A stretch of 64,000 bases of DNA, from contig OX031064.1 of the NCBI GenBank assembly GCA_943736015.1, positions 40,723,361-40,787,360 on the forward strand, in the 5' to 3' direction. Below, one piece after another: positions 5,206 through 48,867 of this stretch. The notes under the pieces are model-generated. The model saw only the letters and a program-made list of their open reading frames with translations, did not search any database and was not told where the DNA came from. Every line of letters begins with the position of its first letter. Position 1 is the stretch's first letter. The stretch comes from Tridacna crocea. Lineage: Eukaryota > Mollusca > Bivalvia > Cardiida > Cardiidae. A program made the position numbers and the translations under genes.

Positions 5206-6670
5206 GGCCTACCGACAGGACAGCTCCCCGACACGGCTTTTCGAGACGTTTCCCCGACAAAATTGCAGACAGTTCCCCGACACTTTTGAAGACAGTTCCC
5301 CGACACTTTTGTTATTAGTATATTGAATAGATTTGGGTTTTTCTTTTTTAAGTATTTTTATGGACATTTATTTGAAATGATGGAACTAAATTTCAACTTT
5401 GGTGGTTATCAAATTGCGTATTATGCCCAGTTAAGGAGGTCGATATATTCACGGCGGGGAATCACGTGACACAACAACAACAACAATGACCGTTATTTGA
5501 AAAAATTCCCCGACTTCAGGTAAGAAAATCTTCAATAATTCCGTTAACACATGACCGATTGGAATTTGGTTTGAAGCAGAGAAGGCGGAAGGACTCCGGG
5601 GATTTGCTTGATGTGTTAGATTTTTTAAACAACACCTGATAAAAAAGTTATTGACGAGCAAACAATTTTTTTACCCTGGATAATTTGTTTGCTCGTCAAT
5701 AACTTTTTTATCAGGTGTTGTTTAAAAAATCTAACACATCAAGCAAATCCCCGGAGTCCTTCCGCCTTCTCTGCTTCAAACCAAATTCCAATCGGTCACG
5801 TATTAACGGAATTATTGAAGATTTTCTTACCTGAAGTTGGGGAATTTTTTCAAATAACGGTCATTGTTGTTGTTGTTGTGTCACGTGCTTCCCCGCCGTG
5901 ATATTGTGATTGGACTGTTTGTTGCCATGATTGGGTGTTTGTAATAATGATTGGTTTAATTGGCCGGAATCTTTCGAGTTTCCGTTTATTTTGTATGATT
6001 GCCGTGTTTTTACTGTAATTCAGCTACAAGAACAAGCCTGCGAGGTAAGTATTGGGTTCTGAAATGCAATTTTAACATGTATAACTCGTGTAATTTATGT
6101 GCTATAAATTTCTTGAATAATGTTAAACATTGAAACTTTTTGTTGATTCTCGTTGGACTGTAAAGGGGATCTACTCTCATATTATCCATTACATTACTAG
6201 CGGGTTATTTCAGTTTCTGCGGAAGTAACAGTAAGAGATGAAAAAAAAAAAAAAAAAAAAATGCACTAAACCTAGGCCTACGTGTATTTCAATTCAAACA
6301 TTGGATTAACAATTTGTTTTAGTAATCAAACTTTATACACATATTCATATAACACATATAATAATATTCTGATCTGCACAACGGCGGAGGTATCATTTCC
6401 GAACTGAGTGATCATCAATAATACACTAAAAAGGAGAAATACTCTCAATTATTCACAATCCTTTCACAAGTACAAGACCCCAGTTTCTTTTCCTTAAAAG
6501 TTATAGATATCAATGATAAATGTCGATGAAAATCAAGTTTGCTAATAATGAATGTGTCGGGGAACTGTCTTCAAAAGTGTCGGGGAACTGTCTTCAGTTT
6601 TGTCGGGGAACTGTCTTCAATTTTGTCGGGGAACTGTGTCGGGGAACTGTCTTGTCGGGGAACTGTCTTG
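5206..6670. mobile_element. Foldback-like element with inverted GTTCCCCGACA arrays
   Basis: Left end 5206-5310 holds four to five copies of (A)CAGTTCCCCGACA. Right end 6551-6670 holds six copies of the reverse complement TGTCGGGGAACTGTC. Spacers in the two arrays also correspond (ACTTTTGAAGACAGTTCCCC on the left against the inverted form on the right). The interior includes the long inverted repeat at 5449-5901. No transposase is visible and no clear target duplication was found, so the exact borders are uncertain. Confidence 0.55.
5449..5901. repeat. 216-bp near-perfect inverted repeat, 21-bp spacer
   Basis: Arms 5449-5664 and 5686-5901 are reverse complements with about four mismatches, centred at 5675. 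Each arm contains a (GTT)n/(AAC)n run and a TCACGTG motif. Each arm also encodes the same 70-residue frame in opposite directions, differing at one residue; this is a consequence of the palindrome and not evidence of a protein. A transcript across it would form a hairpin of over 200 bp. Confidence 0.95.
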
Positions 6671-7179
6671 AAACCATATTATCGCTATTTAAAATCAAAC
6701 GCTCCTTCACTCCATTACAAGTAGATTCGTCCTCAATCTAGATTACATCCCGATTACATCCATTTACTTTTTTTTTCGGCTCAAAGTAAATAACTTTAAA
6801 GGTGGACCGATTGAAACAAATGCAATTTTTCACAGAATATAGACAGAGTTTGGATCCAGTTCATTTCTCAGTTTGGTTCGAATTTTCTTCGGCTAATTTT
6901 GTTTTTTTTTTTCCCTTTGTGTTCGACTTTTCTTGGGGTCGGGTTTGCACTTGAGTCTTCATCGTCCAGACGCATGGCGCTATCTTCAAATAAATAAATG
7001 GCGTCCAAACGGAATCTGTACAGACCTGCCCAAGTGCAAGAAAATGTTGGCCAGCGTCGAACTAGGTAAAATAAAGCCACAGACAACCATGCAAAAACGT
7101 GGCGCCAAAAACACATAATTCACGGTAGCAACCTCTAACTATAATATAGATGTCTTTTTTCGGTTTACACTTTACAGTC
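6671..7179. other. Unassigned spacer, weak minus-strand ORF
   Basis: Apart from an open frame of 82 codons on the minus strand (7116-6868), nothing recognisable is seen. The part beginning MRLDDEDSSANPTPRK has a good start context and a lysine-rich tail, so a small first exon is conceivable, but no convincing donor site follows and no family is recognised. Confidence 0.2.
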
Positions 7180-7345
7180 AAAACGTCCCACCGTTAAAAC
7201 GTCCGGTAACAGGACGTTTCGCCCCCAAGACGTTTCCCCCCTGGTCGTTTCGCTTCTATTTTTCACCCTTAGTCGTTTCGCCCTCGGACCCTAGTCGTTT
7301 CTCCCCCAAACCATGTCCTCCCCTAGTCGTTTCGCCCCCAAGAAA
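7180..7345 (+). repeat. Left GTCGTTTCGCCCC minisatellite array
   Basis: Degenerate 14-18 bp units built on (C/T)(A/G)GTCGTTTCGCCCCC and GACGTTTCGCCCC, preceded by two AAAACGTCC motifs. It shares the phrase CCTCCCCTAGTCGTTTCGCC with the inverted array at 14277-14515, so the two behave as long, imperfect inverted termini. Confidence 0.85.
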
Positions 7346-7397
7346 TTTAAAGAGAGAAAAAGAGAAGCAGAGAGACAATGAGCACCTTAAGAGAATA

Positions 7398-7440
7398 CTG
7401 GCTTGCGACCAGTTCTCGCCAAGTACCAGTTCTCGCCAAC
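7398..7440 (+). repeat. Left TIR and subterminal repeat of pogo-like transposon
   Basis: The outer copy 7398-7422 and inner copy 7422-7440 both contain CCAGTTCTCGCCAA. The mirror arrangement is at 11771-11789 and 11971-11996. Confidence 0.9.
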
Positions 7441-7900
7441 TACCGTATTACACGCTGAAACCGCGATGATTTAGCACGCGATTTTTTTCCGAGTTAAAAG
7501 AAGTTGCTGTCAGAGTTTGTGGTAAATAAAGGTAAGAAATGTCAAGTATTAAGGAAGAAATACGCATTTCCCTTTAGCGACCCCGTCAAATGTAAACAAC
7601 AAATTCCAGGGGATCACGTGACGCCCTACTCTATAAATAAATATGTCCAACACAGAGCAGCGAAAACTTCCATTGCTTGCCAGAGACAAACAAAGACATT
7701 TTTTCTCACCTTGAAGTTCATTGATCCAAGGAAATTTGAATATTTCACTTCAAAACCCTATAAATAAAGCAGTGCTGATTTCACCACGTTCCTCTACAAT
7801 GCACAAACTGAACGCGCCACAGTTTGACCTTGTAATGACGTCATTTAGTGGGAAAAACCAAAATTCCTTCATGGAGCAGTCATTATTCACTATCATTTCT

Positions 7901-8411
7901 TAACCTTCCGATGACAAATTAAACCTATACTAAACATCAAATTTTTAGACTTAACCAAATCGAAAGCATTTGTAGACGACAAATTAAATGAACTAAAAGA
8001 TGGACGTAGTATTTGGTGGAATAGAAAACATTGTGTGAAAAGGAGAACTAATTTAATGTTTTTAATTGGGTTCTTCCTCGGGGTCTTTATAAAAAGTCGT
8101 TCGGGGTTATGTGGAAGGGGATTAAGCAACTTTTTGCACATTGCTTTGCAATGATTATTCTTTTTTTTTTGACTGTCTTAGGAACAAATGATTGTAAAAC
8201 AATCAAATATACAATATTGATGATGATTAGTAATGACAGGTAGAAAACTGCATTCTGTCAAGTTTCGATTTGCAGATATTAGTATAAATGACTATTGATG
8301 ATTAAATATATTCAACCTTTTCCCCAGTAGATCTATGCGCTAATTATAAAAGGAAAGGGTCTGCAAATGCTTTCGATTTGGGCGAGACCAAAATTTTGTC
8401 ATCTCGGAAGT
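7901..8411. repeat. Diverged fragments of the TTAA palindromic MITE, opposite orientations
   Basis: 7901-8046 reads as the reverse-oriented outer half of the MITE (AAATCGAAAGCATTTG then GAAAACATTGTGTGAAAAGG). 8351-8400 reads as the forward-oriented outer part (CTGCAAATGCTTTCGATTTG). The central stretch is unrelated, so this is either a very diverged copy or two partial ones. Confidence 0.5.
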
Positions 8412-8440
8412 ATACATGAAGTTTAAAACCAACTGTAATA

Positions 8441-9299
8441 CCCCCTTTCACCGGGCGGCGATTCTACTGCGCTTTTAAAGGCGATCATGACACTTCTCCG
8501 AAATCTTCCAAATGATGACGAGGAAGCGCAGGCTTTCTGCAACATTCTGGAGCTATAACATTACCTGGGCGTTTATAGAACGTTTCGTGATCTCGCTGCG
8601 CTGGTCACGGTCCTGTCAGGCCGTGGTTGCGCTTAGAACTACGATGCTTCAAAGCGGCTTCTACTACGCTTATAAATTTACGGGATTTCAGGCTAACTAC
8701 CTTGCAGCTGCGACCTTACTACGACTTATGCGCTGGAGGAACACTTCTGTACATTGTGTTTTTTGAACGTTTCTATAAAAAAAAAAAAGTCGTTGAAGTG
8801 GCTATCACGAAGCGCTCTTTAAACTTTTACATCGGCGAAAGCATTTCTACTGCACTTTTGCCGTTCGTGCTACGCCTGGAGGAATTTTTTACTAAAATTT
8901 CGAGACGAATCTCTCTTCAGCGGAATTGAGGTTTAACCTTTTATCAAACAAACCCAGATTTTAACTTTCCTGAGATAGAAGCCTTTTGAAAATATTGTGG
9001 GAAAAGGAAAAAATGCTGGTTACTCGCATTTTCTCCCTTTCCCACAATGTTTTCTAGCCTGCTGGAAACAATTTTCAATTCTTGTATTACGTTTATTTTG
9101 CGAGTGCAAATGCTTTCAATTAGGACAAGTCTAAAGTTTTGTCGTTTGGTAATGGGTCAAAGTGCCGATCATGAAACTTCCGACATGCGTGTACTACAAT
9201 CATGCACTTCCACTGTGCTGTTGCCGTTACGCGTTCGATTCACGGCATTTCGATCGAAAATTCGAAACATAGCCGAATCGCCGCACAGTGGAATGGGGG
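8441..9299. mobile_element. Non-autonomous element with CCCCC...GGCGGCGATTC inverted termini
   Basis: The left end (CCCCCTTTCACCGGGCGGCGATTC) and the reverse complement of the right end (CCCCCATTCCACTGTGCGGCGATTC, in + orientation GAATCGCCGCACAGTG) agree over about 25 bp with a few mismatches. TA lies outside both ends, fitting a TA target duplication. It contains a complete TTAA MITE (8933-9160). No transposase frame is present. Confidence 0.6.
8933..9160 (+). mobile_element. piggyBac-like palindromic MITE, forward copy
   Basis: It has a TTAACC start, central palindrome around 8990-9055 (GAAAATATTGTGGGAAAAGG and its complement) and a GTCGTTTGGTAATGGG end, the terminal TTAA being degraded to TCAA. 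Confidence 0.8.
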
Positions 9300-9345
9300 T
9301 ACTAAATGTAACGTATGTAATGATGAAAATGAAGCCTTGGATCCA

Positions 9346-9374
9346 AACACATTTTTTTTTTTCATTCTTCAGAC
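9346..9374 (+). promoter_or_regulatory. Probable 3' splice site in transposase 5' UTR
   Basis: A 25-base pyrimidine tract ends in CAG at 9370-9372, two bases before the ATG of the transposase. This suggests a 5'-UTR intron whose acceptor abuts the start codon. The donor was not located. Confidence 0.45.
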
Positions 9375-11129
9375 ATGTCTAAGCGATATAGTAAAGACAG
9401 TCGACCGTATACCACTGAACAGTTACAAGAGGCAATTAACTCTGTAAAACAATCAAAGCTGTCTATCAGTCAGGCATCCAGAGAATTTGGAGTACCCCGA
9501 AAAACAATCGATGACCATGTTAAGAAATCTATGAAGTTTAAACCCGGTCCTGATTCAGAAATAACAACTGAAGAGGAAACGGCTCTTGTAAATTACGCAA
9601 AATACCTGGCTAATCGTGGGTTCCCGATGACAAGGGCTATTTTTCGTCAATTCATTATTTCACTGCTAAAACGAAGTGGGAGGGAAACTAAGTTTAACTT
9701 AGACAAAGGTCCGAGTGACAAGTGGTTTAGGGGTTTCCTTAAGAAACACGAAGAGTTAACGGAAAGGGAGCCGGAATTACAAGACAGAAGCAGAAACAGA
9801 ATGTCAAACCCCACCGTCATGAAACAGTATTTTGATCTCCTTGGTGAAACCATTAACAGTTTGGGTTTAAAGCCGCACCAAATATATAATTGCGACGAAA
9901 CTGGCTGGAGCGGAAAGGAAAAGTCGAGGCAAAAGGTTATTGCTGTGAAGGGGCATCACAGTTATCAGCAGGCCCTGATGTCTTCAGGCCATGTTACGGC
10001 ACATTTATGTATCTGTGCAGACGGCAGAATTCTCCCAACATTTATCATCTTTGAGAAAAGCCTGCCTCATATCGATTACAAAGATGGTGTTCCAGGTGAT
10101 TGGCTGTTTGGTCATTCAGAGAGCGGATACATGGATAGCGTGCTTTTCTTAGCATGGTTCAAGCAGGTTTTCATTCCACATTGTGGCTCCGCTAGACCAG
10201 TCCTCCTTATTCTCGACAACCATGACTCTCACACTACTCTAGATGTCATTGAATGTGCCAAAGAAAACAACATTGAGTTACTTGGACTTCCTCCACACAC
10301 GACCCATCTTCTGCAACCTCTGGACGTCAGTATAAATGGGCCTTTGAAAGCCAAGTTCAGCTCTACTGCCGTCCAGTTAGGACATGTAAATAAGCATCAG
10401 ACCATCAACAAGGCAAGATTCCCCGCAATTCTTTCCCATACTATCGATGAATTCTGCTCTCCAGCCAGAGTGAAAGATTCTTTCAGAAAAGCTGGTATTT
10501 CACCTTTTAATCCCGACGTTATAGACAAGTCCCAGTTGACAACGACACACACAGTGACAGAAAAAAGACAAGGAAAGGGACCCGAAGACGAAGCATGTTC
10601 TTCTCTCTCGGAAGACAGTCAGAAGAATAGCAGTATATGCATCACATGTGGTACTTTCCTTGGTGAAAACCCACTTGTGACTGAGGGACTTATTCCACAG
10701 GCTTTGTCTCGAATTTTTACCCCAGTCCCATGCAAGCCACAAACAGTCCGACGAAAATTGGTCACCGAGGCAAGAATTATTACGAGTGAAGAGTACTTAA
10801 ACAGACTGAGAGAAAAAGTGGCAGAAGAGAAAAGAAAGAAAGAGGGGATAGCAAAGAGAAAACAAGAGAGGGAAGAAAAGAAGAAATTAAGAGAAGATGA
10901 GAAGGCAAAGAAGGGGGAAGAAAGGGCTAAAAAAAGACAGAAAACATCACATGTCAGCGCATACATTTGTAAGATATGCAATATGGCAGACCAGGGGAGT
11001 GAGGACAACACACTGTGGATTGGATGTGACAACTGTGACGACTGGGTGCATCCACAGTGTGTAGGTCTACAGGAGGACGAGGACTTCGAAACCATTTCCT
11101 TCATCTGTCCTCAGTGTATCGAAGAGTGA
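9375..11129 (+). CDS. Pogo/Tigger-like DDE transposase with C-terminal PHD finger
   Basis: This intact 584-residue protein would bind the element's inverted repeats and catalyse cut-and-paste transposition in the nucleus. Residues 12-50 form a pipsqueak-type helix-turn-helix (SISQASREFGVPRKTIDDHV). About 60-135 is a CENP-B/Tc5-type second helix-turn-helix. The DDE_1 catalytic core spans about 165-375 with D174 (NCDETGW), D281 (LILDNHDSH) and D317 (HLLQPLDVSI), 35 residues separating the last two. A strongly charged, lysine/glutamate-rich helix with nuclear-localisation character covers about 470-523. Residues 532-581 hold a C4HC3 PHD finger (C532, C535, C551, C554, H559, C562, C578, C581, with the usual W557 before the histidine). 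All three acidic residues and all zinc ligands are present and there are no stops, so the gene may be functional. It lies inside matching TIRs. A domesticated gene is the less likely alternative, since TIRs and TA duplications remain. Confidence 0.95.
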   Translation: MSKRYSKDSRPYTTEQLQEAINSVKQSKLSISQASREFGVPRKTIDDHVKKSMKFKPGPDSEITTEEETALVNYAKYLANRGFPMTRAIFRQFIISLLKRSGRETKFNLDKGPSDKWFRGFLKKHEELTEREPELQDRSRNRMSNPTVMKQYFDLLGETINSLGLKPHQIYNCDETGWSGKEKSRQKVIAVKGHHSYQQALMSSGHVTAHLCICADGRILPTFIIFEKSLPHIDYKDGVPGDWLFGHSESGYMDSVLFLAWFKQVFIPHCGSARPVLLILDNHDSHTTLDVIECAKENNIELLGLPPHTTHLLQPLDVSINGPLKAKFSSTAVQLGHVNKHQTINKARFPAILSHTIDEFCSPARVKDSFRKAGISPFNPDVIDKSQLTTTHTVTEKRQGKGPEDEACSSLSEDSQKNSSICITCGTFLGENPLVTEGLIPQALSRIFTPVPCKPQTVRRKLVTEARIITSEEYLNRLREKVAEEKRKKEGIAKRKQEREEKKKLREDEKAKKGEERAKKRQKTSHVSAYICKICNMADQGSEDNTLWIGCDNCDDWVHPQCVGLQEDEDFETISFICPQCIEE

Positions 11130-11770
11130 AATATGACTCACGGTATCTTTGTAAATATGTTATGCAGTTAATTATGATTATTTATATCAAGTTCTACCTT
11201 TGACTATATCCAGATTAATATTTAGACTTTTCCAAACAATGAACTGTTTTATGGACTCATTTTTTACCCTTCTGAATTACTAAGAAAGCTGTGATAAACT
11301 GATTATGACTAACAATCTTCTCCATATACATGTGATTTTGGATTTTGGACGCTCTCCAACTGAAATGACGGACGGAGTGAAGTAATATTTTAGCCGATTC
11401 GTCATTTAGTAATGTATCAGCAAATCCATACTATTTTGGCTTCAATTTACATCTTTGAGGTAAGAATATTTATTTATCCTGTTAATAGTTATTATAATTA
11501 ATAATGAATATATATCACAATCAACATGAACTTTTGAAAGGGTGAAAATGGCACGTGTAAAAACTGTCAGTGCTTTTATTTCACGCGCGCATGAAACTGA
11601 CATTTTCAGCCGATCACACTACCTGGAATAAATACCGCTTGTACATCGTCAATAATGTCTTAAATGTCGGTTTGTCATGGTACCGAATGGAAATTAACTT
11701 TGAATAATACGGAGGAAGAAAATAATCATTTTCCGTACATATATTAATGTCCTATCCAGATTATAAAAAT
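11130..11770 (+). other. Transposon 3' non-coding region
   Basis: It is non-coding between the transposase stop and the subterminal repeat. An AATAAA at 11627-11632 is a candidate polyadenylation signal. Nothing else is recognised. Confidence 0.4.
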
Positions 11771-11996
11771 GTTGGCGAGAACTGGTACTGTGAACGTCAG
11801 AAATTAACACAATAGGGTAGTAAAATAACTGCTCCCTGGCATATTGCGCATGCGCACAGCAATCGAAAAAAATAATGTCACGTGTGAACAAAAGGTCATG
11901 TTACCACAACATGAGGTCGCATACGGGATTAATTTATCGTTTACGATGTAAGTACAGAACATGTTCCAAAATTGGCGAGAACTGGTCGCCAGCCAG
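11771..11996 (-). repeat. Right TIR and subterminal repeat of pogo-like transposon
   Basis: The subterminal copy at 11771-11789 is a perfect complement of 7422-7440, and the terminal copy 11971-11996 mirrors 7398-7422. TA follows at 11997-11998. Confidence 0.9.
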
Positions 11997-12288
11997 TAAT
12001 GGTTCAAAGATTCTTGAATGATAGTGTATATTAAGAATTATTACATTAATTCAAATCATAATTTTCTGAAAAGAAGAAGAAAGAAAATATAAATACATAC
12101 ATGTTTACCGAGGTAAGTGTCCTTGATAGTCTTCTGATACAATAAACTGAAGTATTAAGGTTTTTCATCGATACCGTTGATCACCTTGTTTAATTGGTTG
12201 AGTTATTAATCACGCAATGTTTTTCGCCAAATGAACGCCACTAATGCTGAGGTGTGAAAACGCATGCTCTATGCAAAATTAAACTTCT

Positions 12289-12517
12289 TTAACCCATTAC
12301 CACACAATCCCTACTTTTGACGCCCCTGAGAAAGAAGCCTTTTGAAAACACTGTGGGAAAAGGAGAAAATGCTGGTAACCAGCATTTTCTCCTTTTCCCA
12401 CAGTGTTTTCTACCCTTCCCAGAACAAATTTCAATTTCTTTGTTACCTTTATTTTGTCGTCTGCAAATGCTTTCAATTTGGACCAGTCTAAATTTTTCTC
12501 GTGTGGTAATGGGTTAA
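12289..12517 (+). mobile_element. piggyBac-like palindromic MITE, forward copy
   Basis: It is flanked by TTAA on both sides, with termini CCCATTACCACACAA and TGTGGTAATGGG. The central perfect palindrome at about 12345-12411 is built from GAAAACACTGTGGGAAAAGG, GAGAAAATGCTGG and their complements. It is among the best-preserved copies in the window. Confidence 0.92.
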
Positions 12518-13860
12518 TTATATCAGCTAGATTTTATTTTTTTACCCAAGTAAAATGAAGAATCATGACAAGAAAAAACTAGTCTGAATTACATAAATAT
12601 ATTGATATATAACTGCTGTTGTATAGTTATGTAATAGAATCATCACATTCAAAGGAAACGTGAATGTCCGTCAATAGTTAATATATACATGTATATATAA
12701 AAAAGCCAATCCTAGATTAAGGATAAAATTCAGAACCAAAAAAAAATTAGGGAAAAGAATCATTTAGAACTGTATCTCCTTTTGTCACGATGCTGATCAC
12801 CTCTAGCAAACAAAGATGATGCACCACATGGCGCCAACCTGATCTCGGTCTTTACCTCTCTTTCATCTTTTAGGTTATCTTTGAAAAGATAATGACACCC
12901 AATATTGATTTCTGCTTGAAAGAGTCCACCGTGTTGCTGGTCAAAAGGCTGTCACTTGCCTTCATAATCCTATCTGGCCCAATTATAAAGTCGTAAATTA
13001 CGTATTACGCAATATCTGTCAATTTGACTTTGCTATTGTGAAGTCGCTTAATTGATTACGTAATGACATCATGCATTGCTTTCAGTATTGTCTGCACCAA
13101 TTTTTTATCAAAAGGTATAGATGCGTTTATATACATGTATCTTTATGTAGAAATACAAATGTGTAAAGAGATTTCACTGTCTTGATTTATCATTTATACT
13201 TCTGAGGTTTATCGGAAAAAGGGTTGATATTATACAGAAAAGTTGTGAACTTAAATCCAGATTGAGTCCTTCTGTGGTCTCTCCGTTCGTCCAGAGCCAT
13301 TTCTCCACAACTCCTGGACTAAATTGGATGAAACTCCATATATGAAGGATATTGCGCCGATGTATTTTTCTCGGTTTTCCAATTTGACGCTGTGTCATGG
13401 AAAAAGGGGGTTTCTTGCAAAAAAAATCCAATTTCTACTAATAACTCTGTCAGTTTTCATCAAAACTTCATGAAACTTCGCATTCATATTGTTTATGAAA
13501 AGTTTCAACATGTGCCCCTCCTTTTCTTAATCTATGCCAAACCATGTTACGGAAAAAGGGTGCTTAATGTTTGATAAGTTGTTGCCCTCATTGCCCTTAG
13601 TAAATTGAAAATTGGAAAATGCTGTTTGGCATACGCGACCAAACACAAGTAGCCTGTTTCGACCCCACCCTCATCTCCTGTGACCAACTATTCACCGACA
13701 GCCTTCACTTTCCTAAACAGAGACCTGTTCGGGGAGTACAATCCGTCTACGATGGCTCTTAATTGTTTTTCTCTTTATCATTTCCATGTACAAAAACACA
13801 AAAAGGGGAGGTGTTTTGGTAAAATGCAATAACCGTTGATAGTCTGGTACTTGAAACAAA
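12518..13860. other. Non-coding; diverged pearl-type core repeat at about 13200-13570
   Basis: No gene is seen. 13290-13570 contains two diverged tandem units (CTCCACAACTCCTGGACTAA, ATGAAACTTCGCATTCATAT, ending GGAAAAAGGG) related to sequences near 22660 and 23690, and so is an old pearl-type core. Confidence 0.4.
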
Positions 13861-13864
13861 GCAA

Positions 13865-13925
13865 TTTAAAACAATGTGGGAAAAAAGGTAAATGCTGGTT
13901 ACCAGTATTTACTCCTCTTTTCATT
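13865..13925 (+). repeat. MITE central-palindrome fragment
   Basis: ACAATGTGGGAAAAAAGG, then AATGCTGGTTACCAGTATTT and a partial mirror arm. The outer parts of the TTAA MITE are missing. Confidence 0.6.
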
Positions 13926-14276
13926 GAATTAGACTATTCAGACACTAACAACACAATTTGAGCAACTCTTGATACTTCCTTTTTCTTCTGTTATAAATCG
14001 AAAAACTGTCCATTGTAAAGCTAGGGTGATAAGTTTCTTTCATTAGTAGAAGCTTTTTGCTTTCTTTTTAATCTTTTTGCTTTCTTTTTAATGTAACAAT
14101 TTTTACCCTTTTACCACACGAGTAAGAATTAAATTTTTGATACGGGTCTCATTGTCTAAATCATTGTCTAAATTATGCAAATGCCAAACAAAAAAAAAAA
14201 TCATACTGTGTTTCTTAACATAGTCCTGCTATTAAAATTTATAAAAGTTCTAAGGTGCAAGTCAGCTTTTCTTGAA

Positions 14277-14515
14277 CAGGGGGCGAAACGACTAGGGGGG
14301 AAACAACCAGGGGGGCGAAACGACCAGTGGGGGCAAAACGACCAGGGGGAAAACGACCTGGGGGAAACGTCTTGGGGGCGAAACGACTAGGGGAGGAGAT
14401 GGTTTTGGGGCGAAACGTCCCGGAACCAAAACGTCCCCCAGTCAAAACGTCCCACTTTTGGTTAAAACGTCCCACTATTCAAAAACATTGGTCAAAACGT
14501 CCCACTTTGAATTAT
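14277..14515 (-). repeat. Right GGGGCGAAACGAC minisatellite array
   Basis: About ten degenerate units GGGGGCGAAACGACCAG, followed outward by four AAAACGTCCCA motifs at irregular spacing. It is the reverse complement of the 7180-7345 array over its inner portion. The open frames in both directions here are by-products of the repeat. Confidence 0.85.
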
Positions 14516-19883: not shown

Positions 19884-22690
19884 ATTTGATTTTGACTCAG
19901 GAACAAAAAAGGAAAAATTTAAAATTCTTCTTCTCTGAAACTAGAAGGTGCAGAGCTTTGATATTTGGTATTTAGCATCTCCTGGTGGACTTCACCAAGA
20001 TTGTTCATATGATGCCCCTGGGGTCAAAACTGGCCCCAACCTGGGGGTCACAAGTTTGAAACATAGGAACAAAGAAGGAAAACTTTAAATATCTTCTTCT
20101 CTGAAACAAGAAGGCATAGAGCTTTGATATTTGGTATGTAGCATCTCCTAATGGGCCGGTACCAAGATTGTTCATATGATGCCCCTGGGGGTCAAAACTG
20201 GCACCGCCCCGGGGGTCACAAGTTTGAAACGTCGGAACAAAGAAGGAACACTTTAAAATTCCTCTTCTCTGAAACTAGAACATGCATAGCTTTGATTTTT
20301 AGCTCACCTGAGCACAACGTGCTCAAGGGGAGCTTTTAGGATCACCCCGTGTCCGTCGTGCATCGTCAACAATTCTTTAAACATCAACTCTTCCTAAACA
20401 GGTGGGCCAATTTGGACCAAACTTGGCTGGAATGTTCCTTGGGAGGTCCTTTTTAAAAATTGTTCATAGAATTTGATTCTGTCAAAAACTCTGGTTGCCA
20501 TGGCAACGAAATGGAATTTTTTAGGTAATTCTTTAAAAATCTTCTTCTCTGAAACTGCTGGCCAGATTTTAAAATAATTTCACAGAGATGTTCCTTGGGT
20601 GACCCTTTTAAAAAATTGTTCACAAAATTTCGATCCATCAAGAAACATGGCTCTGGTGAATGGGGGTTCTTGCACTATACAGAAATGAGGGAATTTTTAA
20701 AAATTCTTCTTCTCTGAAACCACTGGCCAAATTTTAAAATAATTTCACAGAGATGTTCCTTGGGTGACCCTTTTCAAAAATTGTTCGCAAAATTTTGATC
20801 CGTCTAGAAACATGGCTCTGGTGAATGGGGGCTATTTGCGCTATAGGGAAATGAAGAAATTCTTAAAAATTCTTCTTCTCAGAAACCCCTGGTCAGATTT
20901 TGAAATAATTTCATAGAGATGTTCCTTGGTTGACCCTTTTCAAAAAGTATTCGTGAAATTTTGATCCGTCAAGAAACATGGCTCTGGTGAATGGGGGCTA
21001 CTTGCGCTATAGGGCAATAAAGAAATTCTTAAAAATTCTTCTTCTCTGAAACGGCTGGTCAGATTTTGGAGAATTTTCAGAGATATTCCTTGGGTGACCC
21101 TTTTCAAAAATTATTAGTGAAAGTGATTTGTCGAGAAACATTGCTCTGGTGAATGGGGGCTACTTGCACTATATGGAAATGAAGAATTTCTTGAAAATTC
21201 TTCTTCTCTGAAACGGCTGGTCAGATTTGAATTATTTCACGGAAATATTCCTTGAATGACCCTTTTCAAAATTTGTTCGCGAAACTTTGATACATGTAGG
21301 TCAAGAAACATGGCTCTGGTGAATGCGGGCTACTTGCACTGTATTGAAATTAAGAAACTCCTAAAAATTCTTCTTTTCTGAAACTGCTGGTCAGATTTTG
21401 AAAGGACTTTTACTGGTGACCTTTTAAAAATTGCTTGGCAAAATAATGATTTTGTCTCCAGTGTTTCAATACATTAAAAAAAAAGACTATGGTCCTCTCA
21501 AAAATTCAGGTGAGTGATCCAGGGCCATCTTGGCCCTCTTGTTGGTATGTAGCATCTCCTAGTGGACCTCTACCAAGATTGTTCATATGATGCCCCTGGG
21601 GTCAAAACTGGCCTCGTCACAGGGATCGCAAGTTTGAAACGTAGGAACAAAGAAGGAAAACTTTGAAATTCTTCTTTTCTAAAACTAGAAGGTGCAGAGC
21701 TTTGTTATTTGATATGTAGGTTCTCCTAGTGGACCTCTACAAAGATTGTTCGTATGATGCCCCTGGCCTCAAAACTGGCCCTCTCCCTAGGGTCACAAGT
21801 TTGAACCATAGGAACAAAAAAGGAAAACTTTAAAATTCTTCTTCTCTGAAACTAGAAAGTTTAGAGCTTTCATATTTTGTATGTAGCATCTCCTAGTGGA
21901 CCTCTACCAAGATTGTTCATATGATGCCCCTGGGGTCAAACCTGGTCCCACCCCGGGGGTCACAAGTTTGAAACGTCAGAACAAAGAAGGAAAACTTTAA
22001 AAATCTTCTTCTCTGAAACTAGAAAGTTCAGAGCTTTCATATTTGGTATGTAGCATCTCCTAGTGGACCTCTAGCAATTTTTTTAAATCATGCCCATGGG
22101 GTCAAACCTGGCCCCGCCCCAGGGGTCTCAAGTTTGAAACATAGGAACAAAAAAGGAAAACTTTAAAAATCTTCTTCTCTGAAACTAGAAAGTTCAGAGC
22201 TTTCATTTTTGGTATGTAGCATCCTCTAGTGAATCTCTACCAAGATTGTTCATATGATGCCCCTGGGGTCAAAACTGGCCCTGCCCAGGGGGTCACAAGC
22301 TTGAAACATAGGAACAAAGAAGGAAAACTTTAAAAATCTTCTTCTCTGAAACAAGAATGAGTAGAGCTTCGATATTTGGTATGTTTACCTCTATCTGCTA
22401 GTTTACCTCTACCAAGTTTGTTCAAATGATGTCCCTGGGGTTCAAACAGGCCAAGCCTGAAGGAAAACTTTTAAAAAAAATTTCTCTGAAACTGGAAGTC
22501 ATAGAGCTTTGATATTTCATAAATAGCATCTTCTAGTGGACCTCTACCAAATACGATACAATGATCCTGGAGTCCAAACTGGCCCCGCCCTGATGGTCAC
22601 AAGTTTGAACATGGGAACAAAGAAGGAAAACTTTTAAATTCCTCAGTTCTGAATGAAGATGGAAACTTCATATGTGTGTTCCTTATGATA
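19884..22690 (+). repeat. Pearl-like core array, about 165-bp units, with nested insertion
   Basis: Repeated units of CTTCTTCTCTGAAAC, TAGAAGG, GAGCTTTGATATTTGGTATG, TAGCATCTCCTAGTGGACC, ATGATGCCCCTGGGGTC, and GGGGGTCACAAGTTTGAAAC. About eleven to twelve units are present if the insertion at 20296-21543 is removed. A matching 3' terminal module (CTCAGGTGAGC ... GGTCCTCTTGTT) stands at 25298-25342, so the element may originally have reached there. Related arrays are at 35.9-37.5 kb and 52.9-54.4 kb. Confidence 0.7.
20296..21543 (+). mobile_element. Pearl-like element inserted inside another pearl-like array
   Basis: It starts TTTTTAGCTCACCTGAGCAC with a hairpin (GAGCAC AAC GTGCTC) and ends CAGGTGAGTGATCCAGGGCC, GGCCCTCTTGTT. 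The internal units of about 168 bp (TGGCTCTGGTGAATGGGGGC) differ from the host array's. It interrupts a host unit at GAGCTTTGAT / TTGGTATGTAGC, so the insertion is clean and younger than the host array. Confidence 0.75.
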
Positions 22691-25434: not shown

Positions 25435-26290
25435 TTTTTATACGCCCGAAGGGTTGTAATACTATTATGTTATACCCCTGGTTGTTCGTCCGTCCGTTAG
25501 CAATTTCTTGTGTGCCCAACTCCTCCTACAGTTTCCATTGGAATTTTTTGAAACTTGCCACAATGAATCTCTATGATGTCTAGTTGTGCACCTGGGTCTT
25601 AGAATTTGGATTGCTGTTTGCATTCTAAAATTGTCTGCCCCTGATTCCTGAAATTATGAAGTTTTCACTTTGAATTTTTGTTCAGGCTATTAACTTCCAT
25701 ACTATAAAAGATATCAACTTGAAACTACATACACTGATAGAACACACTATGGAGAAGTGCACTGCACATGAACCATAACTCTACTATCTTTATTTTTTGA
25801 GTTATTGCCCTTTGTTAATTTTCAGTTTGAATTTTTGTCCTGGCCATAACTTCCAAACTATGAAGGCTATTAACTTGGAACTTCATACACTGATAGAACC
25901 CAATATGGAGAAGTGCATTGCACATGAATCATAACTCTACCATCTTAATTTTTTAGTTATTGCCCTTTGTTTATTTTTTTCAGTTTGAATTTTTGTCCAG
26001 GCCATAACTTCCAAACTATAAAAGCTATTAACTTGGAACTTCATACACTGATAGAACCCATTATGAAGAAGTGCATTGCTCAAGAACCATAACTCTGCCA
26101 TCCTTCCTTCTGAGTTATTGCCCTTTTCACTTTGAATTTTCGTCTGGGCCATAATTTCTAAAATATAAAAGATATGATCTTGGACCTTCAAAGACTGATA
26201 GAACACCTTGGGGATAAGAGCAATTCACAAAATTTGTAACTTTGCCAACATTATTTTTTTAGTTATTGCCCTTTAATATTTTTCACATAT
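25435..26290 (+). mobile_element. Pearl-like element with TTTTTATACG 5' module and four 150-bp units
   Basis: TTTTTATACGCCCGAAGGG repeats the 5' module seen at 914. Four units begin near 25675, 25828, 25983 and 26129 (TTTGAATTTTTGTCCAGGCC ... GAGTTATTGCCCTTTG). These are diverged relatives of the 156-bp repeat at 989-1975. A 3' terminal module was not found. Confidence 0.6.
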
Positions 26291-28894: not shown

Positions 28895-28980
28895 GATTTT
28901 ATTTCACTCGGTTGTCTTACCAAATTAATCTTACAGATAGGATTTATCCAGGCTAATCGAGCATGACTCGCAAGACGCTT

Positions 28981-29039
28981 GCAAAAACAAAGCAAGCGTC
29001 TCGTGATCAAGATCACTCATGCATACCCGCCATGAATCA
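28981..29039 (+). repeat. Left inverted repeat of DIRS element
   Basis: 59 bp, perfectly complementary to 33875-33933. It includes part of a local hairpin (AGACGCTTG at 28974 and CAAGCGTCT near 28993). Confidence 0.92.
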
Positions 29040-29134
29040 AGTTTTATTTTCAGCGCTCGTCGAGCTCAGACATTTTTTTTCTCACTGTTGTCTTTTTTGT
29101 GTTTTCACTCTACGTTTTGAGTGTTTATTATTCA

Positions 29135-30556: not shown

Positions 30557-30574
30557 CTCGGTAAGCAAAACTTT

Positions 30575-35590: not shown

Positions 35591-35700
35591 TGGGCCGAAT
35601 CTTCTCACCCTCGGGGCTGAATCTTCTCACCTGCTGGGCCGAATCTTCTCAAAAATCACTGGAAGGCCCTGGGCCGAATCTTCTTGGGTCGGAATCTTCT
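35591..35700 (+). repeat. GGGCCGAATCTTCTCA minisatellite
   Basis: Five to six degenerate copies of GGGCCGAATCTTCTCAC. In design it resembles the array termini at 5206, 7180 and 44970, but no inverted partner was found within the window. Confidence 0.75.
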
Positions 35701-35701
35701 G

Positions 35702-37576
35702 ACATCCATTGTGATTGCCCTATGTCTGGCGTCCGTCGTCCGTCAACAATTTCTTAAACATCTTCTTCTCCTAAACCACTGGGCCAGTCTTCATGAAACT
35801 TGGCAGGAATCATTCCTTGAGTGAAGCTCTACCAAAATTGTTCAAAGAATTTAATTCCACCCCATAACTGGTTGCCATGGCAACAAAAAGAGAAAAAAAA
35901 AATCTTTGAAAATCTTCTTCTCTGAAACTAGAAGGCATAGAGCTTTGATATTTGGTATGTAGTATCTCCTAATGGACCTCTACCAAGTTTGTTCAAATTA
36001 TGTCCCTAGGGTCAAAACTGGTCCCACCAAGGGGGATATCAAGTTTGAGCATAGGAACAAAGAAGGAAAACTTTAAAAAATGTTCTCCTCTGAAACTTGA
36101 AGGCGTAGAGCTTTGATATTTGGTATGTGGCATCTCCTAGTGGACGTCTACCAAGTTTGTTCAAATTATGCCCCTGGGATCAAAACTGGCCCCACCCGAG
36201 GGTCACAAGTTTGAGCATAGGAACAAAGAAAGAAAATTTTAAAAATCTTCTCCTCTGAAACTTGAAGGCGTAGAGCTTTGATATTTAGTATGTGGCATCT
36301 CCTAGTGGACCTCTACCAAGTTTGTTCAAATTATAACCCTTGGGTCAAAACTGGCCCCACCCCAGGGGTCACAAGTTTGAGCATAGGAACAAAGAAGGAA
36401 AACTTTAAAATTCTTATGCTCTAAAACTAGAAGGCCTAGGGCTATGATATTTGGCATGTAGCAATTCCTAGTGAAATTTGAAGGAGTAGAGCTTTGATAT
36501 TTGGTATGTGGCATCTCATAGTGGACCTCTACCAAGTTTGTTCAAATTATGCCCCTGGGGTCAGAACTGGCCCCACCCCAGGGGTCACAAATTTGAGCAT
36601 AGGAACAAAGAAGGAAAACTTTAAAATTCTTTTCCTCAGAAACTGGAAAGCGTAGAGCTTTGATATTTGGTCTGTTCCATCTCCTAGTGGACCTCTACCT
36701 AATTTGTACAAATTATGTCCCTTGGGTCAAAACTGGCCCCACCCTGGGGGTCTATAGTTTGAGCATAGGAACTAGGAAGTAAAACTTTAAAATTCTTCTC
36801 CTCTAAAGCTAGATGGCGTAGAGCTTTGTTATTTGGTATGTGGCATCTCCTTGTGGACCTCTAGCAAATTTTTTTAAATCATGCCCTCGGGGTCAAAACT
36901 GGCCCCGCCCCGGGGGTCACAAGTTCGAACATAGGAACAAAGAGAGAAAATTTTAAAATTCTTATTCTCTAAAACTAGAAGGCATAGGGCTATGATATTT
37001 GGCATGTAGCAATTCCTAGTGGACCTCTACAAGTTCATATTATGCCCTTGGGGTCAAAACTGGCCCTGCCCCGGAGGGCCACAGGTTCGAACATAGCAAC
37101 AAAGAAGGAAAACTTTAGAAATCTTCTTCTCTGAAACTTGAAGGTGCAGAGCTTTGATATTTGGTATGCAGAATCTTCTAGTGGACCTCTACCAAGTTTG
37201 GTCATTAATGTCCCTGGCATCAAAACTGGCCATGCCCCGGAGGTCACAGGTTGGAACATAGGAACAAAGAAGGAAAATTTCACATTTCTTTTTCTCTTAA
37301 ACGTGAAGGTGTATAGCTTTGATATTTGGTATGTAGCATCTTTGAGTGGACCTCTACCAAGTTTGTTCCAAGGATGCTGCTTTGGTTAAAACTGACCCAG
37401 CCCTGGGGACCACAAGTTCGAACATAGGACAAAGACGGAAAATTTAAAATTCTTCTTTGAAACGTAGCAGGGATGTTTCTTGGGTGAAGCTTTACCAAAG
37501 TTGTTCAAAGAATTGAATTTCACTCATAAGCTATCGTCTAAGGTGAGCGTTCCAGGGCCAATGGCCCTCTTGTTTT
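35702..37576 (+). mobile_element. Pearl-like element, 5' end missing
   Basis: It enters at TGATTGCCCTATGTCTGGCG without the TTTTTAGCTC start. About ten units of about 165 bp follow (GAGCTTTGATATTTGGTATG ... CAAAACTGGCCCCACC), ending CTAAGGTGAGCGTTCCAGGG and GGCCCTCTTGTTT. The left part is replaced by, or abuts, the minisatellite at 35591. Confidence 0.75.
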
Positions 37577-43023: not shown

Positions 43024-43375
43024 CTTTGTATGATAAATCAAAATAATGGGCATATAAGAATATAACACAAAATACATTAAATGACAAGCAAAGGACTACA
43101 GAAAAAAATTATAAGCATTCTTTTGGTTGCAAATCAAAGTCGATCAAAGACATACTTTAAAAATCAAGCATGTGTAATGTAATTTGTGACTGATGTGCAA
43201 TACATCCTCTCAGTGTGAAATAGGCGGTATAAACAATGGCAAAAGTGCAAATATTTTATCACTCTTGGATTAAGGGAACTAATACACATAATGTACATAC
43301 TAAAAACAACGAACATTCAAATATATTTTTTACAGAAAACTTGAAAAATGATATGGATGAAATATGATGTTGGGG

Positions 43376-43485
43376 AAAATTTCTCCAAAATTTTATTTGG
43401 GGACGATTTCACCAGAGAAAACCGGAGAAATCATCCCCAAGCAGTTTGGGGCTGATTTCTCCAGGGGCAGATTTCTCCAGCATAC
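43376..43485 (+). repeat. GATTTCTCC/GGAGAAATC short repeat cluster
   Basis: Five to six occurrences of GATTTCTCC or its complement within 110 bp, interspersed with GGGGACGAT-type segments. Stylistically like the array-type termini described elsewhere in the window. No partner found. Confidence 0.55.
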
Positions 43486-44893: not shown

Positions 44894-44984
44894 TGAATTC
44901 ACTAGTATTCCTGAAAAAGTCATTTCAACTTGATATAGCTTGATCAAATATGATGACTTGCTTGGCATTGGGTCCCTGTAAATT

Positions 44985-45100
44985 AAGAAACGGAACCGAA
45001 ACTAAACGCAGCGAAACGGACGTAAACGGAACGGAATGAAACACAACAATACGAAAAGAAATAGAAGAAAACGGAATATACCGGGATCGAAACGGACACT
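44985..45100 (+). repeat. Left GAAACGGAAC array
   Basis: About ten units of (A)GAAACGGA(A)C. The mirror array GTTTCGTTCT lies at 48290-48410. Confidence 0.85.
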
Positions 45101-45229
45101 ATTTTTGGTACAAAATCAAGCAGAAGGAAAACCTACATTAGTTTTTGTTTTTGTAAATTACCCTGCTTTTGATTGCCGACAGTGTTACATAGTAACGCTG
45201 AATTTGACATAATTTCAATTATAAAGGGG

Positions 45230-45480
45230 CTGCCAGTGTAGGTCTAGCGGTGCTTTCCTTGAATTTCTTACACAAGTTTTCAACACAACATTGTTTACAA
45301 GCCATTGGCTGCTTTTCCACTTAACCTTCGCCGACAGAACGGTTTTCGTTGAAAGAGGAATGAATCCTGCTGCAATGACTATCATCAGTCCTCGAAAAGA
45401 CATTGGCAGAGTAGGGAATCGAACCAGTGACTACCTGTTCTCAAGTCCTGTACGGTACTGACAGAGCTATGGAGGCCTTT
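45230..45480 (-). mobile_element. tRNA-derived SINE, family 1 copy a
   Basis: Minus strand: A-box TAGCTCTGTCAG and B-box GGTTCGATTCC within 45478-45403, then a tail containing complement of GAGGAATGAATCCTG and ACTATCATCAGTCC. The copy at 47745-47970 shares both head and tail. Confidence 0.65.
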
Positions 45481-45946
45481 TGGTAACACCTACTGTAGGT
45501 AATGAAACCACTTTGGATTCTTACAAGATGGGTTAGAAATAATCCATTTTATGTCAGGCAAATGAGAATGTCGGTTTTTAGTCTTTGATTAAATTTTGTA
45601 CATTTGTGCAGATATCACCTTTCTTCATGCACTGTCTGTTTTTCAATCACTTTGATTTCTCTCCCAAAATAGTGGCCTCGAAGGTCTTATGTCACTGATC
45701 ATGGCTAATTGTATTGAAGGTCTTTTTTTCGCATGAAACAGACATACATAAAAAATTGTGGGGACCGTGACAGACAATTTTGATTGACTGATTCTATATT
45801 TTAAACGCTGCTTTCAACAATTTTTCAGTTATATTACGACAACAGCGCACAGATTCGTGTATTTCTTGAGTTCCACCAGTACTTGGCTATGGCTCTGAAT
45901 TGTCTTGCCTAAGGATACTTCCCCCCACCCCTCAAAAAAAAAAAAA

Positions 45947-46013
45947 ATGAGGATCGAGCCCGGAGCCTCCAGGTCAGGAGTCCTACACTTTACCACTGAG
46001 CCACTCAGGACCA
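45947..46013 (-). mobile_element. tRNA-derived SINE head, family 2
   Basis: On the minus strand, TGGCTCAGTGG (A-box) and GGCTCGATCCTC (B-box), followed by a T-run (A-run on plus, 45934-45947). The acceptor stem does not close, so a pseudo-tRNA/SINE. Confidence 0.6.
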
Positions 46014-46797
46014 TGTGAAATATTATAAACCGGTCAATCTGTTATTGTGCAGCTGGTCCAAGTTATAGTCACTGGCAGAAAAATAATTTCTAAACTCAGA
46101 TGAAAAGTAAATAAAAAGAACGAACGACCAGGGAACTTTTAACCTAGGTTTGAAATTAATTTTTCTACTTAGGACTAAGAGAAATTATGTCTGCGGAATA
46201 TGTACCAATTCATTTTAAGGTTTCTGGGTACATCAAAACTTTCATGCTTTATTTTTCCGTTTCAGTCACTATTTGAAACCTTCCAGTTTGCTCTCTCCTA
46301 GTTCATTTTATTTAAAAATAGAGGTTTCTTAAAAAGTACAGAAATAGTTATAACTAACAGTGGCCCCAAAAGACGACTTCAAAATAAGTTAATACTAATT
46401 TACAGTTAACAAAATATACAATGAATCATGCAGGCAAAAGGGGGCTTAATAAATTTCTATGATGCACGATACCAAGTAAGTCCTCACACAATTTTTGATC
46501 CATGAAATTTGTTTTGTGTAACATTGTACTTTATCGTAACATTGCACTTTATCATGAAATACTCTGGTCCTTTGACGTACAGAAAAGTGACCAATAGCGA
46601 AAGGTTTCGACTCATATCACCCTGTGGGGACTGCGCAGGCTGACCTGGGCAGATACTTTTTACGGATTTGTTAAACCCTGTTTTACAGAATATAGTTCAA
46701 ATTAAGAAATAAAAATCTGAGGAAAAAAACATACTCGAAATATTGCGGCGCTTGGTTGTATTGGCTGTATAGTGTCTAACACCCTTTTCAACATTAT

Positions 46798-46990
46798 TGT
46801 GTGGCGTCCATGGTTGTAGGTTTGAGCGTCTGCCTCATAATCATAACGTCCCGAGTTCGATACCCGGGAGCGGGTGTCATCTTTGGGATTTTTCATTAGC
46901 CCACACATTCGGCGCGAGTACTGGTGTAGTTCACAGGGAGCAGAATAGAAATAAGTAGAAGCTGTAAGAACTTGTTTTTCATTCTATGTA
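46798..46990 (+). mobile_element. tRNA-derived SINE with tRNA-Met-like head
   Basis: TGGTTGTAGGTTTGAGCGTC, a CTCATAA anticodon-loop-like stretch and GAGTTCGATACCC (B-box) at about 46810-46865. The stem regions are imperfect. A tail of about 110 bp follows. Confidence 0.55.
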
Positions 46991-47265
46991 AAATAAATAT
47001 GTTAAAAAGTAAACATTATATCAGTTGTATTGCTGCATGGCGCAATCTGTGCAGGCTGATCTAAATAGAAAATGCTTGCTAGTTAGTCAATATGTTACTT
47101 GTCAAAGTACCAGTGTACCTTGTGATTCAGTCGGCTTTTCAACAAAGAGGGAAATTATGAATCCATGATAATATGATGGAATTGAAATCATATGAAAAGT
47201 GGTGTAAGACACCTTAGAACCCAAAGGACTGCTGAAAATTGTTAAGACAGCAATGGTCACAGACC

Positions 47266-47346
47266 TGCCGTGACCAGGATTCCAACCAAAATGTCGGCTA
47301 CTTCGCGAAGCACTAACCACCAAACGATCACAGCTCTCATTGCTGA
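47266..47346 (-). mobile_element. tRNA-derived SINE head, family 3
   Basis: Minus-strand GTTTGGTGGTTAGTGC and GGTTGGAATCCTGG resemble A and B boxes. Degenerate. Confidence 0.45.
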
Positions 47347-47394
47347 ACAGATATGACCTAGATCTTCGACTTAAACATGAAAGAAACAAACCCT

Positions 47395-47512
47395 TTGCTA
47401 CAAAACAACGAGTTTCACCGCCCCTACAGGAGAAGAGTTTTGAAAGGTTTTAAGAAAAGGAGAAAATGCTTGTCACCACCATTTTCTCCTTTTACCACAA
47501 TGTTTTAAGATT
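47395..47512 (+). repeat. Diverged MITE copy
   Basis: TTTCACCGCCCCTACAGGAG then AGAAAAGGAGAAAATGCTTG with its mirror arm. Outer ends lost. Confidence 0.6.
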
Positions 47513-47562
47513 TAACGCCCTTTTCAACATTAGTTGTATCGCTGCATGTATCCCTACATTGA

Positions 47563-47700
47563 GCCCGGCCGGGTAGCTCGGTGGTTAGCGCATCAGACTG
47601 GTGACCCGGACCTGGTCAGCACTGGTGTGAAAAAGGCAGGAAATACATTATTGCATCACTGACCGCCATGATATGACCTAAGCTGTTAAAAAGGCTTTAT
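47563..47700 (+). mobile_element. tRNA-derived SINE head, family 4
   Basis: GCCGGGTAGCTCGGTGGTTA and GCGCATCAGACTGGTGACCC match a tRNA 5' half. The B-box half is degenerate. Confidence 0.5.
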
Positions 47701-47744
47701 AACTCTTAACACAAACCAAACAAAATCTCTACATTACACCTACC

Positions 47745-47970
47745 TGTGTTTTCCTGCAGTTCTTTTTACTAGTACTTCGCATAATATTCTTCCCAAGCCA
47801 CTGGCTGCTTCCAATCGCTTACTATCGGTGATCAGCAGTGAGAGAGGAATGAATCCTGTCGCAATGACTATCATCAATCCTTGGAAAGAAATTTGTCGAG
47901 TGGATATTTGAACTAGCGACCCTTGTTCTCAAGTCCTGTACGCTACTGACTGTGCTACCGAGGCTCGGCA
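47745..47970 (-). mobile_element. tRNA-derived SINE, family 1 copy b
   Basis: Same family as 45230-45480: shared GAGGAATGAATCCTG, GCAATGACTATCATCA and CTCAAGTCCTGTACG. A-box TAGCACAGTCAG and B-box AGTTCAAATATCC on the minus strand. Confidence 0.65.
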
Positions 47971-48289
47971 TATTCAGGCTCACTGTGATAATACTATGAT
48001 ACCATAGTGACAGAACAAAATTAAATTTTCCCTACATGCCAAATATTTAAAATATATTATTTTTTGTGTAACCTCTAAAGCCACAGTTACTTGTAGAGGG
48101 TTATCTTTTTAAGTGCTTACTCGTGACTCCGACCAGATTTTCAATGCAAAACAATTGCAAAAATTAAGCAACATAATTCTTTTGTGCCTTATATGAACTG
48201 TGGGATAAAACAATTGGAAACAGTACAACAGAACAACGATAAATTGAGACAAAAAAATAAGTTAAAAAAAAAAAAATCACTGCTAGATT

Positions 48290-48410
48290 TCATTTTAATT
48301 CGTTTCTTTCTATTCTGTTTCGTTCCCGTTAATATTCTGTTTCGTTCTATTTCGTTCTGTTTCGTTGCGTGTCATTCTGCTTCGTTGCGTTTCGTTTCTG
48401 TTTCTTACTA
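48290..48410 (-). repeat. Right GTTTCGTTCT array
   Basis: About nine units of TTCGTT(C/G)(T/C)GT, reverse complement of the 44985-45100 array. Confidence 0.85.
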
Positions 48411-48867
48411 TAGGGACCCCTTGGCATTATGCCTCACAGATACATTAAGCCACCTTTTGCCAGAGCATGGCTCATATATTCATGTATTTATACTTTGTAC
48501 ATTAACAGTCCTACGAGTTCAGCACCATCTTATTTGGCATGAATTTACCAATGCATGTACTTTCACTCATGAAGGAGTCCAAAATTTTGTTGGATAGTAA
48601 AACATGTATCAGTTATGCTGTGTGAAAAGGGGCTTTATATATCTTTGTGAACCATGGTACCAAGGCAAGCCATTGCATACTAATGAATCCGTGAGTTTTT
48701 AGAATAACAATCTTAATCCTGAGGTAAACTGATCTTACGGAAAATTGACCAATAGCGAAAAGTTTTGGCCCAGGTCAGCCTGCACAGGCAGGCCTAGATG
48801 GATACTTTTTTGCAGATGCATTAAGCCCCGTTTTTACAGAGCAAGTTTAGGAAGATATTACTAAAGA

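Follow-up and report, generated by a model that had tools for sequence, protein, structure and literature searches.

We analysed 64,000 nucleotides of the genome of Tridacna crocea (contig OX031064.1; C9:40723361-40787360, hereafter the window), in which a preliminary description had noticed arrays of short degenerate repeats at five places and had read three of these loci as elements with long inverted termini. All five arrays are present. The GTTCCCCGACA (family A), GTCGTTTCGCCCC (family B) and GAAACGGAAC (family C) units are arranged in inverted arrays that bound genuine transposable elements on both sides. The content of the window, a retroelement, satellites, and pogo and Mutator-like (MULE) transposons, is eukaryote-like.

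Array-ended elements in the window

The elements and their parts, in window coordinates, are as follows.

5212..6675, no strand assigned: family A element, non-autonomous, with inverted GTTCCCCGACA arrays; right end intact (GGTTTCAAGACAG... inward), outermost left end lost
5223..5305, plus strand: A left array, units at 5223, 5249, 5272 and 5295
6555..6675, minus strand: A right array of six exact units; the element ends at 6675
7162..7204, plus strand: left end of family G (GGTTTACA..., AAAACGTCCCAC units), interrupted by B; border set by eye against G copies L087-L094
7205..14427, no strand assigned: family B element, inserted in the G array; 9-bp target duplication AAAACGTCC; ends GGTAACAGGACG and GGTTCCGGGACG
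7205..7340, plus strand: B end 1 array, GTCGTTTCGCCCC-type units
7398..11996, plus strand: element F, pogo-like, nested in B; TA at 7396-7397 and 11997-11998
9375..11129, plus strand: F transposase open reading frame (ORF), 584 aa, with HTH_psq, HTH_Tnp_Tc5, DDE_1 and a PHD finger
14279..14427, minus strand: B end 2 array, GTCGTTTCGCCCC-type units
14428..14505, plus strand: same G left array resumed after B, units at 14428, 14444, 14464 and 14494, then G interior
35592..35707, minus strand: lone end of family D, AGAAGATTCGGCCC units read inward from end GGATGTCAG
43370..43480, no strand assigned: E-like lone array, degenerate minus-strand GGAGAAATCNGCCCC units and a single inverted one
44970..48419, no strand assigned: family C element, ends GGGTCCCTGTAA and GGGTCCCTATAG, degenerate GAAACGRAAC arrays of GAAACGGAAC type

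With up to one mismatch, the A arrays hold four forward units (5223-5295) and six reverse units (6555-6653). The degenerate GAAACGRAAC-like units of C start at about 44980 and run to about 48405, and this element has a perfect 9-bp target duplication, CTTGGCATT. Inside the A element lies a near-perfect palindrome (5449-5901; 220-nt arms, 98%, 13-nt spacer).

The locus that had been taken for a single element between 7180 and 14515 is indeed bounded by arrays, those of B, with four forward units (7213-7326) and five reverse units (14279-14406) at up to two mismatches; its true span, however, is 7205-14427. The AAAACGTCCCAC units at 7180 and at 14428-14505 have one orientation and belong to a single G array split by B. 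Since AAAACGTCC stands on both sides of B, and G sequence runs from about 7162 and again from 14428, we read the locus as a nest of F inside B inside G, in which B consists of about 2.6 kb of its own sequence plus the nested 4.6-kb pogo element. A downstream scan that tolerated up to four mismatches yielded no convincing unit of a G right end. The arrays near 35.6 kb (D) and 43.4 kb (E) are lone ends in the window, where a partner end of D was searched for and not found; both families occur as inverted pairs elsewhere in the genome.

Abundance and pairing in the genome

The genome searched comprises 1.05 Gb in 31 contigs. It contains 924 matches to a two-unit A pattern, 735 to the B unit, 787 to the D unit, 1472 to the E unit and 122 to the G unit; reversed-letter controls of these five patterns gave 0 matches each. 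The intact left end of B has 160 genome copies. For C, the pattern TTCTGTTTCGTTCTNTTTCGTT recovered the window copy only; a similarity search with both 150-bp C ends succeeded, with 57 matches for one end and 48 for the other, those of the window among them, at 70-100% identity.

Pairing was assessed over the first 100 places listed for each pattern, and the statistics thus refer to contig C1 for A, B and D and to the listed places for C. The arrays face one way only. Opposite-strand neighbour clusters within 10 kb on C1 were 9 inward and 0 outward for A, 15 and 0 for B, and 0 and 13 for D, whose unit is named on the other strand; D has two same-strand neighbours as well. Random placement (1000 runs) gave a mean of 0.06-0.15 pairs and a maximum of 1-3 for these three families. 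Clusters without a partner number 13 of 31 for A, 4 of 34 for B and 21 of 47 for D. Among 78 C clusters at the listed places there are 14 inward pairs, the window's included, and no outward pair; nine of the 14 are 4.0-4.2 kb long. For E some inverted pairs occur among the places listed, for example C1:67412760-67414865, and many places are isolated. The arrays thus co-occur in pairs in other genomic copies, so that the possibility of independent loci raised in the preliminary description was not borne out.

Two observations concern neighbouring families. With elements grouped by hand, four neighbours among A, B, D and G lie within 2 kb of each other on C1, more than in 1000 random runs, which gave 0.2 on average and 3 at most, and on C10 a second G unit lies 151 bp from a B end (C10:1941755-1941906).

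Element ends and target duplications

At each end, a short terminal motif peculiar to the family precedes an array of several units of 10-23 bp. The terminal motifs of the two ends are unlike in A (GGGAACAAGACA and GGTTTCAAGACA), B (GGTAACAGGACG and GGTTCCGGGACG), D (GGATGTCAGAAG and GGGTGGAGGAAG), G (GGTTTACAGTC and GGTATCCGGTC) and H (ATGTAGGACG and ATGGAGGACG), and alike in C, where the fetched copies have GGGTCCCTATAA at both ends with small variants.

Exact target duplications of 8-10 bp flank 52 of the 57 scored copies of A, B, C, D and G. They are exact in 15 of 17 A copies (11 of 8 bp, four of 9 bp), all 20 B copies (15 of 8 bp, five of 9 bp), nine of ten C copies (9-10 bp), four of five D copies (9 bp) and four of five G copies (three of 9 bp, one of 8 bp). 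For H, one copy (L076) was read, and it has a 9-bp duplication, CACTGTTGA, identified by eye. When the two flanks were taken from different copies, exact words of at least 8 bp were shared in 0 of 90 combinations for C, 0 of 20 for D and 0 of 20 for G, and 0 of 380 B combinations agreed with up to one mismatch over 8 bp. The window A copy, with its incomplete left end, and the B copy L068, whose second end fell outside the pattern, were excluded. End sequences were fetched for nine of 13 other C pairs, for five of 13 D pairs on C1, and for four listed G pairs plus L095; the borders of C, D and G elements were set after looking at the sequences.

Transposase ORFs between the arrays

A 5.9-kb A copy, L019, contains a 510-aa ORF with an N-terminal FLYWCH zinc finger (35.2 bits) and a MULE domain (50.2 bits), and a pogo-like enzyme for this family was rejected on this ground. 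The ends are common to coding and non-coding A copies, and the subterminal sequence of L019 beyond the arrays is common to 14 of 17 other A copies (16 loci plus the window) at about 74-92%. A second copy of this transposase, 90% identical, is at C10:17894097; two more A-transposase-like fragments (C9:40658592-40660141) lie about 63 kb to the left of the window. In the H copy L076 a 502-aa ORF with an N-terminal FLYWCH (46.4 bits) and a MULE domain (37.9 bits) stands between inverted GGACGTTTTGGCCAC arrays. This copy is one of 18 with an equal score (41.1 bits) among 61 MULE matches in the genome, and it alone of these was examined for arrays; the 61 matches are a lower bound, and the search is blind to introns. 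The A and H proteins align over 319 aa with 30% identity; the aligned part covers the stretches DGTF, DFE and EGW, which we take to be the putative DDE triad. The G copy L095 (5.8 kb, 8-bp duplication GTCCTATG) encodes a 216-aa MULE fragment scoring 28.8 bits against a cut-off of 27.6, in which FLYWCH was not seen. A search for a shared transposase, as had been proposed, thus found MULE ORFs in one copy each of A, G and H, with FLYWCH in A and H, and none for B, C, D or E.

Two candidates for a B enzyme were rejected. The pogo transposase at 9375-11129 belongs to F, which is delimited within B by inverted ends and a TA duplication of its own and whose end recurs in different flanks in six other copies. 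The 5.96-kb B copy L056 has no open frame longer than 108 aa, and its length is due to satellite-like internal repeats.

Probable composite ends of Mutator-superfamily elements

The arrays are very probably composite terminal inverted repeats of several families of foldback-type DNA transposons of the Mutator superfamily. What is directly observed are paired inverted arrays, target duplications and, in a single element from each of A, G and H, a MULE ORF; with these observations the proposal that these loci form one architectural class of mobile elements holds. For B, C, D and E, we infer membership of the superfamily.

How might such ends work? Most likely, the FLYWCH zinc finger of the element-encoded MULE transposase would bind the repeated units, and several transposase subunits may assemble on each end; the two ends would then be synapsed and cut, and integration with staggered cuts would leave the 8-10 bp duplications. 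Short copies that have no transposase, such as A, B and C of the window, would presumably be mobilised in trans by coding copies.

Several results weigh against this assignment. Among A copies, 18 of 272 swapped flanks agreed with up to one mismatch over 8 bp, and seven of the 17 copies have one duplicated flank in common, so that there are only 11 independent A insertions, ten of them with exact duplications. Five copies failed the duplication test: L011 (two mismatches), L022 (one mismatch), L106 and L093 (no duplication) and the D pair L081, scored as failed because its flank was too short, although the seven bases obtained there all agree. L014, L016 and L025, all of family A, match L019 in the arrays alone. 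The 216-aa MULE piece of L095 could be a nested insertion, and so in principle could the ORFs of L019 and L076, one copy of each having been examined. Within 15 kb of 99 of the 160 B left ends there is no MULE-domain match among the 61 scored in that intron-blind, lower-bound search. The proximity test used all but one of the 100 listed B ends, leaving out the second member of a close pair on C4, and 80 of 100 listed G places, leaving out second pair members. No transposase was found for C, D or E, the interiors of whose other copies were unread.

Units, arrays and rival explanations

The preliminary description suggested that the termini evolve by tandem amplification. If this growth were continuing, the unit would be a by-product rather than a binding site, which we consider unlikely. 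In A the unit number does vary from four to seven (up to three mismatches in 11; the end 2 count includes one loosely matching terminal word), and amplification or loss of units is possible there. In B, however, we see no ongoing amplification. With up to four mismatches in 14, end 2 has eight units in all 19 copies and end 1 has seven in 15 copies and six in four. Units differ by a mean of 2.06-2.12 within a copy, against 0.16-0.62 at equal position between copies, and order and spacers are kept across the 19 copies. Since both unit number and the individual differences of units are kept, the B array is inherited as a block. Retention of the GGACGTTT core in three families (B, G and H) also speaks against the unit as a by-product.

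The unit motifs had been called unrelated. This is true of C, whose units are unlike the other seven motifs compared, and not of B, G and H with their common core. In each of the pairings B-G, H-G and B-H the units resemble one another more closely than shuffled ones do (p <=0.0005, 4000 shuffles), and of 28 pairs compared, with registers chosen by eye and G taken on the strand opposite to its inward reading, only these three survive correction; likeness of D and B is borderline (0.004). The orientation of the core relative to the element ends is opposite in G to that in B and H. More tentatively, then, at least six, probably seven, foldback-type MULE families may coexist in this genome, with some of the units being variants of one ancestral site, each read by its own diverged FLYWCH transposase. 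If true, this would provide a natural series for the co-evolution of a zinc finger with its multiplied binding site, and one of the changes would be a reversal of the site with respect to the cut.

Another explanation is that the families come from different superfamilies and their repeat-built ends are convergent, so that only A, G and H would be MULEs, and B, C, D or E would be, for example, of hAT or KDZ type. The lack of MULE matches near B ends, given above, is in its favour, and F, of another superfamily, also has repeated sites at both ends, so that convergence does occur. hAT and KDZ-type elements are known for a strict 8-bp duplication. We found 9-bp duplications in four of 17 A copies and five of 20 B copies, and those of C (9-10 bp) and D (9 bp) depart from 8 bp as well, while the B units are similar to those of G and H. 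Muta1, a MULE that is mobile in yeast, gives 8 or 9 bp (PMC5225508). We therefore regard an origin from separate superfamilies as quite improbable.

That the arrays are independent minisatellites in fortuitous inverted pairs is hardly credible: single D and E arrays in the window, the unpaired A and D clusters on C1 and the many isolated E places would agree with it, and it is rejected by pairing in one orientation far above random, by precise ends, and by the target duplications that flank the arrays on their outer side in A, B, C, D and G.

Comparison with known systems

The Mutator-superfamily reading places the families beside elements already in print, and the suggestion of an undescribed group is not sustained: for Muta1 and Tm1 the literature already describes composite inverted ends of short tandem units together with 8-10 bp duplications and FLYWCH-MULE transposases. 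Their design is the same, and the present families are further examples of it and no new class of element.

Muta1 of the mosquito Aedes aegypti transposes in yeast with duplications of 8 or 9 bp, has inverted ends of 145 bp made of a 10-bp terminal motif and nine 12-bp tandem units, and encodes a 504-aa transposase with FLYWCH and a MULE-type DDE domain (PMC5225508). The same text gives more than 300 putative non-autonomous relatives, 9-15 bp subterminal repeats in ten of 12 long-end families of that mosquito, and the authors' view that Muta1 is classifiable as a type 2 foldback element (PMC5225508). Duplication size, tandem-unit ends and the FLYWCH-MULE transposase are like those described here. 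The unit and terminal sequences are different. A further difference is that A, B, D, G and H have unlike terminal motifs at their two ends, and activity has been demonstrated for Muta1 (PMC5225508), in contrast to our families.

Tm1 of root-knot nematodes bears a different 7-bp motif at each end and a variable number of 13-15 bp tandem units; it makes duplications of 8-10 bp (mostly 9 bp) and encodes a FLYWCH/MULE transposase that its authors put in the Phantom subclass (PMC3169594). It thus resembles the present families in end motifs that differ, tandem units, duplication size and enzyme, and differs from them in sequence and from B in that the B unit number is nearly fixed (PMC3169594).

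Tetris of Drosophila virilis is a foldback element with tandem repeats in its ends and 8-10 bp duplications, and the copies found lack a transposase (PMC4079207); unlike in the families described here, its units are about 220 bp long and seed satellite arrays (PMC4079207). Two surveys bear on molluscs. A survey of MULEs has two mollusc groups and gives inverted repeats, of 48 and 296 bp, for one of them and none for the other; a survey of bivalve transposons has 39 curated MULEs; the word foldback is absent from the accessible text of both (PMC6446971; PMC10294476). Our word-based literature searches of open-licence papers, which included no sequence search, did not meet the present families in published descriptions.

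The analysis assigns abundant repeat families of this genome to the Mutator/Foldback class; what looks like a short 'minisatellite' in such a genome can be the end of a transposon. The families are also material for the question of how a transposase and its multiplied binding site change together.

Other elements in the window

Element F has the DDE_1 transposase and the TA duplication of a pogo/Tc1-mariner element. Its CCAGTTCTCGCC sites are at 7409 and 7426 on the plus strand and at 11774 and 11974 on the minus strand, an unequal spacing of 17 bp at one end and 200 bp at the other. Five other full-length genome copies are 97-100% identical, one with an internal stop; the same F end occurs in six other copies with different flanks (one end read per copy). 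In a related pogo-like family, with a protein 35-37% identical to that of F, CATGCTCGCCCA sites are 16 and 202 bp apart in all four copies checked (L036, L037, L039 and L041), so that the site sequence differs and the spacing is nearly equal. F resembles Drosophila pogo in its DDE_1 transposase, TA duplication and repeated short sites at each end, and differs in having a PHD finger; it is a nested passenger outside the array families.

Retroelement remains occupy 27333-33435, with a reverse transcriptase and RNase H (30575-32614, plus strand) and a DUF5641 ORF (27333-28166, minus strand); DUF5641 is common in BEL/Pao elements. An ORF at 40280-40945 has a weak DUF4371 match (27.1 bits, below the cut-off of 32.1). 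Short hairpins with perfect or nearly perfect arms, based on AAAAGGAGAAAATGCTGGT or sequences close to it and resembling miniature inverted-repeat transposable elements, are found at 8988-9054, 12344-12410, 13868-13919 and 47440-47508, and also in L076. Dispersed satellite-like arrays with a period of about 145-168 bp lie at 1056-1957, 19899-22452, 25662-26274, 35895-37457, 50964-51377, 52951-54327 and 62433-62815, and the B copy L056 likewise has long internal repeats.

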